This document shows, piece after piece, positions 19,877-40,123 of a stretch of 42,065 nucleotides of DNA. The notes beneath the pieces are model-generated. The model saw nothing but the letters and a program-made list of their open reading frames with translations. It was not told the DNA's origin and ran no database searches. This stretch comes from Methylococcaceae bacterium (GTDB lineage Bacteria; Pseudomonadota; Gammaproteobacteria; Methylococcales; Methylomonadaceae): assembly GCA_024636875.1 (NCBI GenBank), contig JAGXGJ010000075.1, positions 1-42,065 on the forward strand. Reading direction: 5' to 3'. The translations under genes were made by a program, and so were the position numbers. The stretch's first letter is position 1. Every line of letters starts with the position of its first letter.

Positions 19877-21562
19877 TTAATAAAGGGGTTCACGATAAAA
19901 TATCAGGATGATCCCGATCTGGAACAGGGCGGCAACAGAAACAAAACCGGCAAACTCTTTGCCTGGTTTATCCAGTTTCAATTCCAGCCAGCGGCCGATT
20001 GCCAGAATGAGAGAAAAAACACCCATTGTGGTGTGCCCAACCTGAATAAGAAAAGCACTTTTGGCCTGAAAGCCGACATGTGAATGGGTGAGCAACATTA
20101 AACCGCCGAAAGCCGCTAGAAAGGGGAAAACGAAGGGTAGCTTGCTGTCAGTGTTTTTGGTCATTCTGGCTGTCAGTTCAATAATGCCAAGAACAAACAC
20201 CAGCAAGGTCGCAATTCTGTGCTGTAATACTTCGCCATTATTAAAGGTGCTATCCCAGAAGCCTATCGGCCCCAATGGCCAGGTTTCGGCGTCACTGCGG
20301 AAAAACAGAAAAATACCAAGAAAAACAAAGCCCAATGGCCAATATCGGGTTAATGGCAAATAGTTATCGAAAAATGACAATGGAGACGGCAATTGCCTTA
20401 TATAAGAAAGCATGGCGAAGAAACTCATCGTCATCAGAAAAATACCCGCGATGTTGTGATTATAGTTTGACCATTCGGTCGCTGCTATTGAAGGCACTTG
20501 ATCTATAATGGCGACGCGACCAGCCTCACCGGCTATCAATTCAGTATGGCTGGGTGAGCTGGTTTGGGGAATCTGTGGGCTAAAGGTCTCAAATACTTCC
20601 TGCCAGTTTGCCGTCAGTGCCGGAATATCAATGGCTGGAGGCTGCGAAGCCAGACTGGCGGCAGTAAATAACAAGGTAGTTAATACAAAAGTCTCAGCTT
20701 CAATGTAATAAGGGACGCGGTTGTTTAGTGCATAATGGTTGCCGGTAATGCCGTATTCCATTACGGCGCTTTTATTCAACCAGGCAAAACCCAGGGCAAG
20801 CGCCAATAAGGTCATTTTTACCATTAATAAATTACCATAGCCCGTGCCGACCAGACCGTTCCATGTATCAATGTACTGCAAGGCAATAGGCAACCCCGAG
20901 ATTAGAATTAAAGCAACCGAGGCTATGCCATACCTGGAGAATCGTCGTAGCATTAAAGGCCATAATTCAAATGGAACCCGTTTGTTTCGGCGCAAAAGCC
21001 AAAGATTGACCAGTTGAAAAATGCCGCCGATCCAGGCGGCGGCGGCCAGTTGGTGAATAACTGTTAACGCCATTAAAATGAGCTTGTTTTCAAAACGTCC
21101 CGCCGCATGTACTAGCCATGCCCCTGAAATAATCATGGGTAAGGCCATAAGGGCGGCATCTGTCCAGTGCTCCTTGGAAAAAGGGTTATTACGCAGATAC
21201 TGATAACAATAGCCTGCTAATAATACAGTCAGAATCGTGCGAATAATGCCGCCAATGAATTGAGTAGTGTCGGCGAATTCAGGAAAGGGCGAGCGCTCAA
21301 GTACGGCTGTCATCAACCAGATCTTGAGAATTATTTTAAAAAGTTGCGCAGCGGCAAGTAAAAATCCACCTTTATAGATAAGAGATATGGTTTTTTGCAG
21401 CAATACATCATTGTATCTGTCCTCTGTCTTCTGTCCTCCGTCCTCTGATAGCCACGGACGTAAAACAAAAAGACCCCAGAACAGGCCGCCGATTGTTAAT
21501 GAATAACAAATCAGAGCCAATCCGCCTATCAGGGAATCGAGAAAATCAGCTATACCCGCCAT
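19877..21562 (-). CDS. CopD-family membrane protein (copper transport/resistance)
   Basis: A 561-residue polytopic inner-membrane protein with roughly 12 hydrophobic segments. The first four-fifths match the CopD/YcnJ type ([64 protein letters not shown]). CopD proteins move copper across the inner membrane together with periplasmic CopC. The copC-like gene directly upstream overlaps it by 13 nt, supporting a functional pair. Residues ~38-49 ([12 protein letters not shown]) are encoded by a purine-rich simple repeat (21414-21450) that looks inserted in frame. Lying inside a hopanoid operon is unusual; copper is central to methane oxidation in methanotrophs, but any link to hopanoids is inference. 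Confidence 0.82.
21414..21450. repeat. Degenerate CTGTCCTC/CTGTCTTC simple repeat inside the CopD-like gene
   Basis: About four degenerate copies of an 8-9-bp pyrimidine-rich unit on the plus strand (CTGTCCT, CTGTCTT, CTGTCCTC, CGTCCTC). They encode the charged insert in a cytoplasmic or loop segment between the first two membrane helices. It keeps the reading frame. The tract resembles simple intergenic repeats elsewhere in proteobacteria. Confidence 0.6.
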
Positions 21563-21936: not shown

Positions 21937-23328
21937 TCAGTGACTTTTTTTGCTTTTTAAAGCATGACTGGCTAAATTTTTCCCTAAATCCCAGATTGAA
22001 CCGGGAATTTGATGAGTTTCCGCGATGACTTTATCAAATGCACTGACAATATGATCGCGGTCTTTTTGTGTCAGATTTAATGGCGGCAGCAGTTTGACCA
22101 CGTTCATGCCGTGTCCGGCAACCTGGGTCAGTATATGGTGTTCTTTAAATAAAGGTATCGTGATCATTTGACAGAACAAGCCTTTATTGGCGGCTTCCAG
22201 CATCGCCCAGGCTGCTTTCAGCGTCAGACTTTTCGGTGACTTGAATTCGATTGCGATCATCATGCCTTTACCGCGCACTTCTTTCAGGAACTCATATTTT
22301 CCAGACAATGCGTTTAAACTGTTGATAATATCAGTGCCTGTTTCCAGGCTGTTTTCAACCAGTTTTTCTTCCTTCAAAACATGCAAAGTGGCAAGACCGG
22401 CCGCCATCGCCAGATTGTTTTTGGCAAAGGTGGAACCGTGCACGATGGCTCTATCCATACGATTAAAAACGCTATCCATGATTGTGTGCGTCATGGCCAC
22501 TGCGCCGACTGGAACAAAACCGCCGGATAAGGCCTTGGCCATACAAATCATATCCGGTTTAACGTTCCAGTGATCTATGGCCCAGAATTTTCCGGTGCGT
22601 CCCAAGCCTGTCTGAACTTCGTCAGCGACAAACAAGGTGCCATATTTTTTACATAATCGCTCAACTTCAGGTAGATAGTGATCATCGGGTACATTAACAC
22701 CTTTACCCTGAACAGGTTCGACGATAAAAGCGGCAACGTCTTTATTGCTTAAAGCCTTTTCCAGTGCCTCAGGATCATTAAAAGGTATTGGGCTGCAACC
22801 CGGCAGCAACGGGCCAAAACCTTCACGAAAAATCTCTTCGCCATTCAAGGATAACGCGCCCATCGTCAAGCCGTGATAGCCGTGTTCACAAAAGACTACT
22901 TTTTCCCGTTTGGTTGTATAACGGGCAAATTTGATGGCGGCCTCGACCGACTCGGTTCCGGAATTACAAAAGAACATCTTGTCGAGATTAGCCGGAGTTG
23001 TTTTCAAAAGCTCTTTAGCCAGTAAGCCACTGAGTATGGAAACATCCAGTTGCACAAGATTGGGTAATTCCAGCGTCAAAGTCTCTTTTAACGCATCGAT
23101 AACGGCAGGATGGTTGCGGCCAATAGCAAATACGCCAAAGCCGCTTAACAAATCCAGATATTCAGTACCGGCCTGATCATAAAGATATTGTCCAACAGCT
23201 CTTTGGTAATGCCGGTCGTAGCCTATGGTCTTTAACATTCTGACCAGTTGATTATTGAGATGCTGCTCGTGCAGATCAAATTTATCAGAACTATGTTGGG
23301 CAAAAAGTTCGGCAATGCTGAAAGTCAT
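21937..23328 (-). CDS. hpnO: Hopanoid aminotransferase HpnO
   Basis: A class III pyridoxal-phosphate aminotransferase of 463 residues, expected to aminate the ribosyl-derived hopane side chain to give aminobacteriohopanetriol. Visible features: the GTESVEAAIKFAR phosphate-binding segment, ADEVQTGLGRTG with the cofactor aspartate D236, and the Schiff-base lysine K265 in MAKALSGG. The N-terminal FDLHEQHLNNQLVRMLKTIGYD matches the HpnO branch rather than ornithine aminotransferases. It follows hpnG in the operon. The ATG has no ribosome-binding site: the 64 bp before it are a heptanucleotide tract. Translation may depend on coupling from hpnG or vary with repeat number. Assignment as HpnO rests on both sequence pattern and context. 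Confidence 0.9.
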   Translation of the reverse strand: MTFSIAELFAQHSSDKFDLHEQHLNNQLVRMLKTIGYDRHYQRAVGQYLYDQAGTEYLDLLSGFGVFAIGRNHPAVIDALKETLTLELPNLVQLDVSILSGLLAKELLKTTPANLDKMFFCNSGTESVEAAIKFARYTTKREKVVFCEHGYHGLTMGALSLNGEEIFREGFGPLLPGCSPIPFNDPEALEKALSNKDVAAFIVEPVQGKGVNVPDDHYLPEVERLCKKYGTLFVADEVQTGLGRTGKFWAIDHWNVKPDMICMAKALSGGFVPVGAVAMTHTIMDSVFNRMDRAIVHGSTFAKNNLAMAAGLATLHVLKEEKLVENSLETGTDIINSLNALSGKYEFLKEVRGKGMMIAIEFKSPKSLTLKAAWAMLEAANKGLFCQMITIPLFKEHHILTQVAGHGMNVVKLLPPLNLTQKDRDHIVSAFDKVIAETHQIPGSIWDLGKNLASHALKSKKSH

Positions 23329-23334
23329 ATTTGA

Positions 23335-23394
23335 GGTTCAAGGTTCAAGGTTCAAGGTTCAAGGTTCAAGGTTCAAGGTTCAAGGTTCAAGGTT
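23335..23394. repeat. Heptanucleotide tandem repeat GGTTCAA, 8.6 copies
   Basis: Eight perfect copies of GGTTCAA (23335-23390) plus a partial GGTT. It begins 6 bp upstream of the hpnO start codon (on the minus strand) and ends at the hpnG stop codon, filling the whole intergenic space. On the coding strand the unit reads TTGAACC, which gives no Shine-Dalgarno match. A 7-bp unit is prone to slipped-strand length change. Confidence 0.95.
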
Positions 23395-24220
23395 AGGAGC
23401 GACCGTGTAAGTATTGGATTTTTTCATCTTTCGCCTTTTGCCTTTTATCTTTTGCCTGATCTCCAGTTCCAGCTTTGTGGTGAATAGTTTCCATTCTATT
23501 ATCACAGCTAAAACCGGTTATTATATCAAGATGTTTGGCTGCCGATTTCAGTGTTTTCCTGGCAGCATTAAAATGCAGACCCAGTTTTATAAGGGCGGGC
23601 AATTCGGCGGGATGGAGAACCAGAAATAGTATTAATTTACCTAATATAATGTCGCCCTGATTGTTAAGCGAATAATTGATGGCCAAGGGCAAGTCCATAT
23701 TAACCGGGTCAGCTATGGCCCGTATAGCTAAAAAAGGCAAGCCGTAATGTCCTGCAACCTTGGCTATAGCGATGCTTTCCATATCCAGCACAACTGCACC
23801 CGTTATTGATTGCAGTTGTTTTTTGTCTTTGCTGGATGAAACAATGCCTGGACTCTCAGCCAGCCAGCCAGTATGAACGACAAGAGACGTGGACAGACTG
23901 TTTTTAGCATAGCTATGCCAATTGCTGGAGACGCAAAAATTTGCGGCTCTACAACCTTCGGCATCTATCAATTCATCAGCCAGGGTTAAAGAACCCGGTT
24001 TTAATGCTGTGCTAAGAGCTGCGGCGCAACCCCAACTGATTAGCCGGGTTGCGCCGTTAGTTATCAGCAATTCAGCAGCTGCCTTAGCATTGGCGGAACC
24101 GGCGCCAGAATTTGCGACTAATAACTTGTCAGTAATGAAAGCACACTCCCCTTTTTTAATATTTTTTGATGTCAGGGTGGCCAATTCTTCAGACAAAGCA
24201 ACAACAATGCCGGTGATCAC
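23393..24220 (-). CDS. hpnG: Adenosylhopane nucleosidase/phosphorylase HpnG
   Basis: Removes adenine from adenosylhopane to give ribosylhopane (or its phosphate), the step before HpnO. The 275-residue product belongs to the nucleoside phosphorylase/MTA-SAH nucleosidase superfamily: SGAGSANAKAAAELLI, LISWGCAAALS, the substrate-binding VLDMESIAIAKVA and the catalytic AIRAIADP aspartate region. It starts with GTG overlapping the shc stop by GTGA, so the pair is translationally coupled. The last ~24 residues (DQAKDKRQKAKDEK and onward) are encoded by simple-repeat DNA (about 23418-23460) and look like a recent, non-functional extension; homologues would be expected to end earlier. Confidence 0.9.
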   Translation of the reverse strand: MITGIVVALSEELATLTSKNIKKGECAFITDKLLVANSGAGSANAKAAAELLITNGATRLISWGCAAALSTALKPGSLTLADELIDAEGCRAANFCVSSNWHSYAKNSLSTSLVVHTGWLAESPGIVSSSKDKKQLQSITGAVVLDMESIAIAKVAGHYGLPFLAIRAIADPVNMDLPLAINYSLNNQGDIILGKLILFLVLHPAELPALIKLGLHFNAARKTLKSAAKHLDIITGFSCDNRMETIHHKAGTGDQAKDKRQKAKDEKIQYLHGRS

Positions 24221-37848: not shown

Positions 37849-39529
37849 GATTCAATCCGCTCCCGGCTGATAGGCCGGGAGATACGCAAGCCGCAGCAAT
37901 GCCCACGCCGCCAGCCGAGAGTTTCAATCCGCTCCCGGCTGATAGGCCGGGAGATACGAAGCAGGCCCGATCCCTGAGGATGCATTTGAGAGTTTCAATC
38001 CGCTCCCGGCTGATAGGCCGGGAGATACCAGCTTACGACTTAATGGTGCTGCTCAATCAAGCGTTTCAATCCGCTCCCGGCTGATAGGCCGGGAGATACA
38101 TGTAAAGCGAAGTGTAAAGCGCGTGTCAGCAAGGTTTCAATCCGCTCCCGGCTGATAGGCCGGGAGATACAAGTATGCTTGGCTACGCGCGCATTCTGAA
38201 AGAAGTTTCAATCCGCTCCCGGCTGATAGGCCGGGAGATACCTTTCAACAGCCATGTGCACGTCACCAATCTTAACGTTTCAATCCGCTCCCGGCTGATA
38301 GGCCGGGAGATACGCATTATCTTCATGCCCGCAATGAACGCATTTATAGTTTCAATCCGCTCCCGGCTGATAGGCCGGGAGATACGGCCGTCGATAGTGA
38401 TTCGCTTGCGGGTTTTATAGTTTCAATCCGCTCCCGGCTGATAGGCCGGGAGATACGACAATGACAGAGGTTTTTGGTGGAGCCCTTCCAAGTTTCAATC
38501 CGCTCCCGGCTGATAGGCCGGGAGATACAAATAATGAAGTATCCATAGTAGCCAGATAAAAAGTTTCAATCCGCTCCCGGCTGATAGGCCGGGAGATACT
38601 TTGTCTGTTTTCATTTTATTCACCTTAATAATTTGTTTCAATCCGCTCCCGGCTGATAGGCCGGGAGATACTCCACGACAGCATCATCAATAATTGCATC
38701 GAATTTGTTTCAATCCGCTCCCGGCTGATAGGCCGGGAGATACAGTCCAAAGCATCAATACCAAGCCAAACCTCTGTGTTTCAATCCGCTCCCGGCTGAT
38801 AGGCCGGGAGATACCATTCCAGCAGGATATAATCAACTCATTGACAAAGTTTCAATCCGCTCCCGGCTGATAGGCCGGGAGATACGCATGACCGACTTCT
38901 CTGACGGCGGCGGCAAGATGTTTCAATCCGCTCCCGGCTGATAGGCCGGGAGATACATATGAAAAGTGACGGCATCGACTGCTATGTCGCTGTTTCAATC
39001 CGCTCCCGGCTGATAGGCCGGGAGATACTGTCTGCCTGCCAGCATTTGATAGCGTATAGCCTGTTTCAATCCGCTCCCGGCTGATAGGCCGGGAGATACT
39101 AAAGGTGGAGCCTGCCCCTCCAAATAAATCAAGGTTTCAATCCGCTCCCGGCTGATAGGCCGGGAGATACGCTGCATCACAAGTTAATTAATGGTAACTT
39201 ATGGTGTTTCAATCCGCTCCCGGCTGATAGGCCGGGAGATACGTGACGGCATCAAGCAGCGTATAAACTGTTTTAAGTTTCAATCCGCTCCCGGCTGATA
39301 GGCCGGGAGATACTTTGTAAGCTTTTTAACTTGTGCTTCAAGTGTTTTGTTTCAATCCGCTCCCGGCTGATAGGCCGGGAGATACCTTTTACCCTCGTTT
39401 ACAGTTACGGCCCCAAGCAGTTTCAATCCGCTCCCGGCTGATAGGCCGGGAGATACCACGTACGCACGTAGCAATGTATATGCCAATTCATAGTTTCAAT
39501 CCGCTCCCGGCTGATAGGCCGGGAGATAC
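37849..39529 (-). CRISPR. CRISPR array, 24 repeats and 23 spacers
   Basis: The repeats are 37 bp and identical except for the leftmost (37849-37885), which has one T to A change at its second base. Spacers are 34-36 bp and all differ. Read on the minus strand the repeat has GTAT, an 8-bp stem CTCCCGGC/GCCGGGAG with a CTATCA loop, and an 11-nt 3' handle ending ATTGAAAC. The leader side is at 39529, next to cas2; the degenerate repeat at the opposite end marks the oldest spacers. The 11-nt handle after the stem is typical of type I-C, though I-C repeats are usually 32 bp. Individual repeat starts include 37921, 37992, 38063 and onward about every 71-72 bp to 39493. Confidence 0.98.
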
Positions 39530-39832
39530 GGCCTTGTTGTAAGGCCATGATGATTATAACGAATATGCACTATTAACGCGAAAGTTATGAGTTTCAAACC
39601 TTAATTACCATAGGTGATTTGGAATATAACAAGGTTTTGATTAAGTTTCATATGTTTACAAGAGCTGCGAAGCTGCCGGTGTTTTTGGCATCACTTAGGG
39701 TTCGCGTTTTAGTTTTAATTGACTGTTGGCCTTTAAAAATGTTGGGTTATGCTGTTGCTAATCCAACAAAATACAATAGTTACAAAGTTCAGTATATTTG
39801 ATTTTATTCAAGCTTTATATAATAAGTGTGCT
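39530..39832 (-). promoter_or_regulatory. CRISPR leader
   Basis: An AT-rich 303-bp non-coding region between cas2 and the newest repeat, in the position of a leader. It should contain the array promoter and the adaptation signals, which I cannot delimit. Its cas2-proximal end includes an 18-bp tandem duplication starting CTTTATATAATAAG (39813-39848) that overlaps the cas2 stop codon. Confidence 0.75.
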
Positions 39833-40123
39833 TTATATAATAAGTGTGCTTTCAAAATCGATAGCCTGACTATTACCAAATTCTTCCCTGTTTTTCTCAA
39901 GCGGCTCAATAATCCGGTAGATTCTCAAACTATCCTGCACGAGGTCGATTTCTTTTAGCAGTTGGTCCTTTAATCTGGCCATTTCCATGGTGTTGACCTG
40001 ACATTCAAACACCGATTTTTGTACACGTTGTCCGTAATTCAAACAGGTTTTCGCCACTCGTCTTAAACGTCTGCGGCCCTCGCGGGTTTCGGTAGACACA
40101 TCGTAGGTAATCAGAATCATCAT
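39833..40123 (-). CDS. cas2: CRISPR-associated endoribonuclease/adaptation protein Cas2
   Basis: A 96-residue ferredoxin-fold protein that pairs with Cas1 for spacer integration. It opens [13 protein letters not shown] with the conserved aspartate of Cas2, and [27 protein letters not shown] matches the type I-C branch well. Either of the two initial Met codons may start. It lies 10 bp after cas1. The last codons ESTLII-stop are part of an 18-bp duplication, so the same codons and a second stop are repeated just downstream. Confidence 0.95.

Follow-up and report, generated by a model that had tools for sequence, protein, structure and literature searches.

The eight tandem heptamers between hpnG and hpnO probably represent, on balance, one of the arms of a palindromic intercistronic cassette of heptad repeats, whose class is spread through part of the methanotroph family. 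Read on the coding strand, this cassette would consist of the upstream stop, (AAGGYNM)m, a short loop, (KNRCCTT)n and the next gene. The array in the window (the whole stretch of 42,065 nucleotides that was analysed) most likely arose when a CCTT arm in such a cassette grew by slippage. The genome holding the window (G000; contig C123) comprises 3.19 Mb in 183 contigs and is 77% complete. Gene starts were called throughout by means of our own simple ORF script. The coordinates of the features are given in Table 1.

Table 1. Position of the repeat tract, the two heptad arms and the flanking genes in the window.
Feature	Position	Strand	Remark
Eight perfect units reading TTGAACC along the coding strand (+ strand, GGTTCAA)	23335..23390	-	Putative start-proximal CCTT arm
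Partial ninth unit joined to the hpnG stop TAA (23393-23395)	23391..23395	-	
Six-base spacer TCAAAT (coding strand) ahead of the hpnO ATG	23329..23334	-	TCAAAT-ATG also in congener G002
Stretch separating the two heptad arms, translated as HpnG end	23396..23424	-	
Degenerate AAGG-heptad arm, coding strand TCAGGCAAAAGATAAAAGGCAAAAGGCGAAAGATG	23425..23459	-	TRF 23428-23457; translated within the HpnG tail (QAKDKRQKAKDE)
hpnG-like ORF, PNP_UDP_1 domain, 275 aa	23393..24220	-	C-terminal tail absent from congener G001
hpnO-like ORF, class III aminotransferase, 463 aa	21937..23328	-	Start conserved among relatives

TRF delimited the tract to 23334-23394 with a period of 7, 8.7 copies, a 100% match and a score of 122, which confirms the eight perfect GGTTCAA units reported in a sequence-only reading of this DNA. 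The partial ninth unit consists of the letters GGTT (23391-23394) and is overlapped by the TAA of hpnG. According to the same reading, the repeat fills the entire gap between the two genes. This is nearly the case: the gap measures 64 nt, of which the six bases next to the ATG are not part of the repeat. The two genes are encoded on the minus strand, the hpnO ATG occupies 23326-23328, and the mRNA between them reads (UUGAACC)8 UCAAAU AUG. None of the motifs AGGA, GGAG or GAGG occurs at -18 to -4 of this ATG, and the reported lack of a Shine-Dalgarno sequence was thus borne out. The 21-nt triple unit of GGTTCAA gave 26 overlapping matches in the G000 genome and none when read backwards; the tract is therefore not due to chance. 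Two features were absent from the earlier reading, namely that the unit is oriented and that a second, degenerate heptamer tract (23428-23457) is translated as part of the HpnG C-terminus. The HpnG tail of G000 that is missing in G001 is encoded in part by this second tract.

The hpnG-like ORF scored 171.4 bits against TIGR03468, which is below the cut-off of 187.1. Among the best 25 NCBIfam matches of the hpnO-like ORF none is named HpnO, and each is below its cut-off. The name of the aminotransferase was therefore taken from the neighbourhood and from the role of HpnO as described in the sections of PMC12583986 considered here. Farther upstream of hpnG follow a squalene-hopene cyclase ORF and a squalene/phytoene synthase-type ORF. 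Three further repeats were seen in the window. A CRISPR-like array with a repeat of about 37 nt (GTTTCAATCCGCTCCCGGCTGATAGGCCGGGAGATAC) and a spacing of about 71 nt occupies 37851-39530, and a perfect 18-nt tandem (GCTTTATATAATAAGTGT, 2.3 copies) is located near it at 39812-39852. A degenerate TCTGTCC heptamer tract with 4.6 copies lies at 21416-21447 within a copD-like ORF.

For a comparison of the hpnO start, 30 loci were taken from 37 genomes with a match, and 27 of them could be resolved. The alignment with relatives places their start at MTFSIAEL or close variants of it; the ATG at 23326-23328 is therefore the likely start. Among the 24 leaders displayed, a heptamer array at hpnO was found only in G000 and in G002. 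One of the motifs AGGA, GGAG or GAGG is present in 16 of the 27 resolved leaders and absent from 11. Both array-bearing leaders lack such a Shine-Dalgarno-like 4-mer, whereas 16 of the 25 array-less ones contain it and nine do not. For example, congener G001 has no array and its leader caagaggactac-ATG carries AGAGGA ahead of the start codon. The notion that the repeat replaces the ribosome-binding region is thus in agreement with what many relatives have at this place. In G002, the leader contains four TCGAACC units followed by TCAAAT-ATG; here, the hpnG frame stays open across the array (TCGAACC lacks a TGA) and shares 4 nt with hpnO. Among the remoter relatives, hpnO is often preceded by a gene other than hpnG. 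That a change in length leaves the protein intact, as had been proposed, also held: the copy number differs between species (eight at hpnO of G000, four in G002) and the protein start is unchanged. All copy-number comparisons are between species, with one genome per species.

The orientation of the arrays and their proximity to start codons were determined in the family. Arrays with three or more units number seven in G000; six point toward the following same-strand gene and one points away. The family set comprised all 38 arrays from 41 related genomes (G000 included), seven of which have any. TTGAACC points toward the following same-strand gene in 25 arrays and away from it in four; four arrays lie between convergent genes, three in an ORF and two at a contig end. 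The latter two are long arrays that stop there, such that the assembly may have truncated high copy numbers; the longest family arrays have 17 units. For the 36 arrays left after omission of these two, an ATG within 12 nt was found on the TTGAACC side in 20 cases and on the other side in four (Fisher p = 1.2e-4). The control trinucleotide GTA gave three and nine, respectively, and CAT gave 11 and five. CAT is a poor control since CCATG starts contain it; the CAT test across the family yielded 21 of 237 genomes. Of the 25 arrays directed toward a gene, 20 are closer to the following start than to the preceding stop (p = 0.004). The window array is among the five exceptions, with the upstream stop 2 nt and the start 6 nt away. 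When the 237 family genomes were scanned for triple units no more than 12 nt from an ATG, (TTGAACC)3 was found at such a distance in 27 genomes (53 arrays listed) and (GGTTCAA)3 in 11 genomes (14 arrays listed). Arrays of three perfect units were present in 44 of these genomes and absent from 193. A Shine-Dalgarno match precedes only one of the 25 array genes but 58 of 176 sampled genes of G000 (p = 0.0018, with starts from the simple caller).

The same triple unit is also found outside the family. At least 119 stretches with three exact tandem units were collected from many phyla, and the 119 listed loci contained 130 arrays. Of these, 27 point toward the following gene and 25 away from it; 29 are located in an ORF, another 24 are flanked by convergent or divergent genes, and 25 have no called neighbour. 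Subtraction of six Methylococcales loci from the listed ones left 25 toward and 24 away. An ATG within 12 nt was found for 10 of 119 listed arrays on the TTGAACC side and for seven of 119 on the other, which corresponds to background (CAT, 15 and 11 of 119; GTA, nine and nine). Compared to the 20 of 36 in the family, the value for the TTGAACC side is clearly lower (Fisher 8.7e-9). In none of the four testable arrays from the six Methylococcales loci of this multi-phylum listing did the TTGAACC side have an ATG at 12 nt or less. A universal start rule for the TTGAACC unit was rejected, given the even orientation and the background level of ATG among the matches listed in other taxa.

The arrays are not special to hopanoids; in G000 and its relatives their neighbours are mostly housekeeping genes. 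Ten downstream proteins from the family were examined in total. Eight of them (hisC, purD, tldD, cysN, eda, rraA, pyrF and gshB) scored above the NCBIfam cut-offs, and the other two were assigned to PHP and JAB domains by Pfam. Possible exceptions are a pilin-like gene (L204) and a pilus/secretion-like gene (L213), both recognised by eye. The array neighbours are thus not mainly surface or adaptive genes, as phase-variable loci would be.

Several array positions are common to different genera. Arrays precede the PHP-domain gene in G000 (six pure units), G012 (five) and G024 (five), and a shorter one is found in G002. The JAB-domain gene has arrays in G000 (four units), G002 (three) and G017 (nine), and tldD has them in G000 (five) and G017 (10). 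For each of these three genes, 30 loci were taken from 38 to 40 matching genomes. Of the resulting 90 leaders, four (L328, L343, L346 and L373) are uninformative, with no start codon at the picked place, and the placement of a few more may be wrong. The remaining leaders of these genes contain no pure array; at several PHP loci only a few nt separate the preceding stop from the ATG and the cassette is absent. Arrays at cysN were found in G011 and G012, and their exit TAACCC-ATG recurs in G183-G186, which were matched by this exit sequence alone. At purD, G000 and the family genome locus L398 agree in part of the loop (GTCGTATGCACCTTGA) and at the array exit (CTGATCTTCT), but the units and their number differ; of the first 150 residues, 125 are identical. 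In total, five coincidences between arrays of G000 and arrays of six other genomes were observed, compared to 0.06 expected if arrays were placed at random among 3,500 starts (an assumed number). Inheritance is the simple reason for the shared positions, at which the arrays are pure though their length has changed; the positions could also be plainly inherited without any use. Furthermore, L389, L397, L399 and L405 apparently represent one orthologous intercistronic site with an AAGG-heptad cassette in four family genomes. With nine, three and two GGTTCAA units and another unit, this site forms a natural allelic series.

A second, opposed heptad arm links the pure arrays to a wider class. Two AAGG cores at heptad spacing were found within 120 nt on the 5' side of 17 of the 36 family arrays and on the 3' side of one (background 3%). 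Among the listed arrays of other taxa, the corresponding values were 11 and one of 112 (background 1.3%). In a sample of 328,761 bases from G000, the pattern AAGGNNNAAGG followed by CCTTNNNCCTT within 90 nt occurred eight times, and three of these occurrences are known arrays; the sample includes the window and stretches of C27 and C99, which likewise hold known arrays. The reversed order was found zero times in the same bases. At period 7, AAGG was the sole four-base core of this sample with at least two inverted pairs. In the family, the pattern AAGGNNNAAGGN{5,35}CCTTNNNCCTT, i.e. with a loop of 5-35 nt, was present in 105 of 237 genomes, with 27 overlapping matches in G000, 48 in G002 and 48 in G017. 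The reversed order gave six matches in six of the 237 genomes, and the mirrored control gave 11 matches summed. The polarity of the class is therefore strict. In the window, the 90-nt scan detected 23347-23444, where AAGG heptads precede CCTT heptads. With 41 nt between its arms, this site lies outside the 35-nt loop limit of the family-wide pattern.

Thirty cassettes were read. Both neighbours were called for 28 of them; 23 are located between same-strand genes and five between convergent or divergent genes. Because 131 of 165 adjacent gene pairs (79%) in the G000 sample are co-directional, this proportion is no signal by itself. Of the 23 co-directional cassettes, 20 begin -2 to 15 nt from the upstream stop and only three have their end 15 nt or less from the next start. 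The class thus hugs the stop, and proximity to the start belongs to the pure arrays. Two AAGG-heptad palindromes of the form AAGGATG / CATCCTT, in which the variable triplet is ATG, were also noted inside called ORFs of G000 (L227, 3491-3529 and 4880-4954). In addition, a second class of repeat-built palindromes was seen in L015 and in the G000 sample, which has CCCT cores every six bases (CCCTCACCCTAACCCTCTCCC...GGGAGAGGG) and 12 inverted pairs in 329 kb.

The folding of the leaders was predicted. The window leader folds no better than its shuffles (z of +1.4 and +1.50), and a hairpin at the hpnO leader is therefore not supported. Rfam gave no match at E up to 1 in 23200-23700. Among the 25 array leaders, 13 have a z of -3 or lower and 12 are above this value; at least one of the 13 (L204) folds via an unrelated palindrome. 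With 2 to 16 copies at the hpnO start, the predicted unpaired values range from 0.61 to 0.64 for -20 to -1 and from 0.38 to 0.41 for the ATG region; with no copies, the values are 0.62 and 0.30. The earlier proposal that the mRNA structure may change with repeat length finds no counterpart in the accessibility predicted around the start. A TTGAACC array contains TGA in every frame within 21 nt. Ribosomes that read through hpnG in any frame would therefore stop before hpnO. The repeat does not belong to the hpnO frame, and translation from an in-frame start farther upstream could not pass it. In-frame upstream TTG starts within the array, which would give a longer HpnO, were rejected since each TTGAACC frame meets a TGA. 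In the gene pairs described in the relevant part of PMC10666635, a spacing of about 20 nt nearly abolished reinitiation coupling. If this result applies here, coupling over the 64-nt gap between hpnG and hpnO is unlikely.

It is plausible to assume the following course of events. Members of the class adjoin the upstream stop, and a CCTT arm that has grown to a pure TTGAACC array would usually reach the next start. Between hpnG and hpnO, the CCTT arm would have grown by slippage into (TTGAACC)8, and the AAGG arm would have drifted and now be translated as the extra tail of HpnG. The array may then serve mainly as an unstructured leader without a Shine-Dalgarno sequence, which would stop upstream ribosomes in all frames. 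Its copy number would drift between species with little effect on translation and would not constitute a phase-variation switch. Evidence against this course is provided by the poor folding of the window leader and of 12 of the 25 array leaders, the distance of 41 nt between the arms, the position of the window array nearer to the stop, the remoteness of most co-directional cassettes from the next start, the four Methylococcales arrays that have no ATG close by, and the 193 family genomes without an array of three perfect units. As the predicted accessibility of the start is independent of the number of copies from 2 to 16, copy number is probably near-neutral for hpnO. A more far-reaching version is speculative and rather improbable: a heptad-coded intercistronic element would give Shine-Dalgarno-independent starts to scattered housekeeping genes in part of the methanotroph family, would be read by a modular RNA- or DNA-binding protein, and would evolve by adding or swapping seven-base units.

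A neutral heptanucleotide microsatellite is a possible, if less favoured, explanation. Slippage grows any heptamer, and place and orientation of the arrays would then merely mark where they are harmless; CCTT arms are free of Shine-Dalgarno-like AAGG and provide a stop in every frame. This explanation is consistent with the occurrence of the triple unit in many phyla without start enrichment or a bias in orientation (27 versus 25 listed), with copy numbers of 2 to 16 that have no predicted effect, and with housekeeping neighbours that share no functional theme. Moreover, a passage of PMC4679880 states, citing earlier work, that heptanucleotides rank first in abundance among the long simple repeats of most genomes. 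Neutrality is opposed by the strong orientation and start bias in the family and by the strict arm polarity, for which 105 genomes stand against six. The reuse of the same gene starts across genera (five versus 0.06) also argues against it, although inheritance alone would give the same result. An element acting at the level of DNA is distinctly improbable. Here, the opposed heptad arrays would be putative sites of a nucleoid or regulatory protein, and any effect on the RNA would be incidental. Cassettes between convergent or divergent genes (five of 28, with a sample background of 34 of 165) would fit, as would the paired tandem heptanucleotide sites of Geobacter metallireducens, which are proposed in parts of PMC2700814 to be sites of a global regulator. 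There is, however, no known binding protein, and a strand-symmetric DNA site leaves the start-side bias of the pure arrays unexplained.

The sequence-only reading had suggested that slippage could make aminohopanoid output variable between cells. Such a contingency locus, in which the repeat switches or tunes HpnO, is very improbable. A perfect tract of eight units adjoins the start and copy number varies among species, as it would at such a locus; in Moraxella, the tracts of uspA1 and uspA2 lie between promoter and start codon, as mentioned in PMC4679880. Yet the predicted accessibility hardly varies between 2 and 16 units, the repeat is not part of the hpnO frame and has TGA in every frame, and the arrays adjoin mostly housekeeping genes. 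Aminohopanoid phase variation was therefore rejected as the leading reading on account of the flat folding and the housekeeping neighbours. A switch specific to hpnO and a variable aminohopanoid output are not supported by these predictions and neighbourhoods. A slippage-expanded cassette arm remains the preferred reading.

Within the library searched, the literature on heptamer repeats and on methanotroph repeats contained no description of the AAGG-heptad class; the entries listed for the unit itself were primers and unrelated papers. Likewise, the portions of PMC4679880, PMC4692102 and PMC2700814 considered mention neither the TTGAACC unit nor the methanotroph family. Related methanotrophs offer a comparative system, in which the same gene starts occur with arrays, without them, or with different unit numbers. 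With this system, it can be tested directly whether heptamer repeats of bacteria have any function at starts, a question of long standing. It also advises caution, as a repeat beside one gene need not be a switch for the pathway of that gene.

Several known systems resemble the arrays in part. REPs have a conserved sequence. Like these, the cassettes are multicopy palindromes between genes; in contrast to REPs, their recurring part is restricted to a core of four bases per heptad. The sites of Geobacter metallireducens (PMC2700814, as far as considered) are similar in being tandem heptamers or octamers that are paired on opposite strands with variable spacing and occur at many places. They differ in their units and in being proposed for global regulators or IHF/HU-like proteins, and no start-codon rule was seen in that part of the paper. 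Rehm et al. (2015; PMC4692102, in the sections considered) described G-rich intergenic GGGNATC heptamers with a preference for four units in Xanthomonas and Nostoc. As in the present case, their orientation is ordered, with the G-strand coding just after stops and non-coding just before starts. The named genes belong mainly to general metabolism, and phase variation was judged unlikely by the authors. In contrast, GGTTCAA has GG only and hence lacks the GGG tracts required for a quadruplex.

There is also a likeness to the start-proximal TAACTGA direct repeats of marine Beggiatoaceae, for which translational regulation has been suggested (MacGregor 2015; PMC4679880, in the passages considered). 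According to these passages, TAACTGA repeats also occur in other groups in other arrangements. In both systems, tandem heptamers are found many times per genome and mostly in one orientation, end a few nt before the starts of unrelated genes and displace Shine-Dalgarno sequences. Thus, a one-orientation tandem near the start and the rarity of Shine-Dalgarno matches are also found here; the TAACTGA unit is not. Here, the unit is TTGAACC, the lineage is another one and the arrays reach up to 17 units. Furthermore, at about half of the arrays the upstream stop is followed by an AAGG-heptad arm, and there is a wider class with mixed AAGGNNN units.
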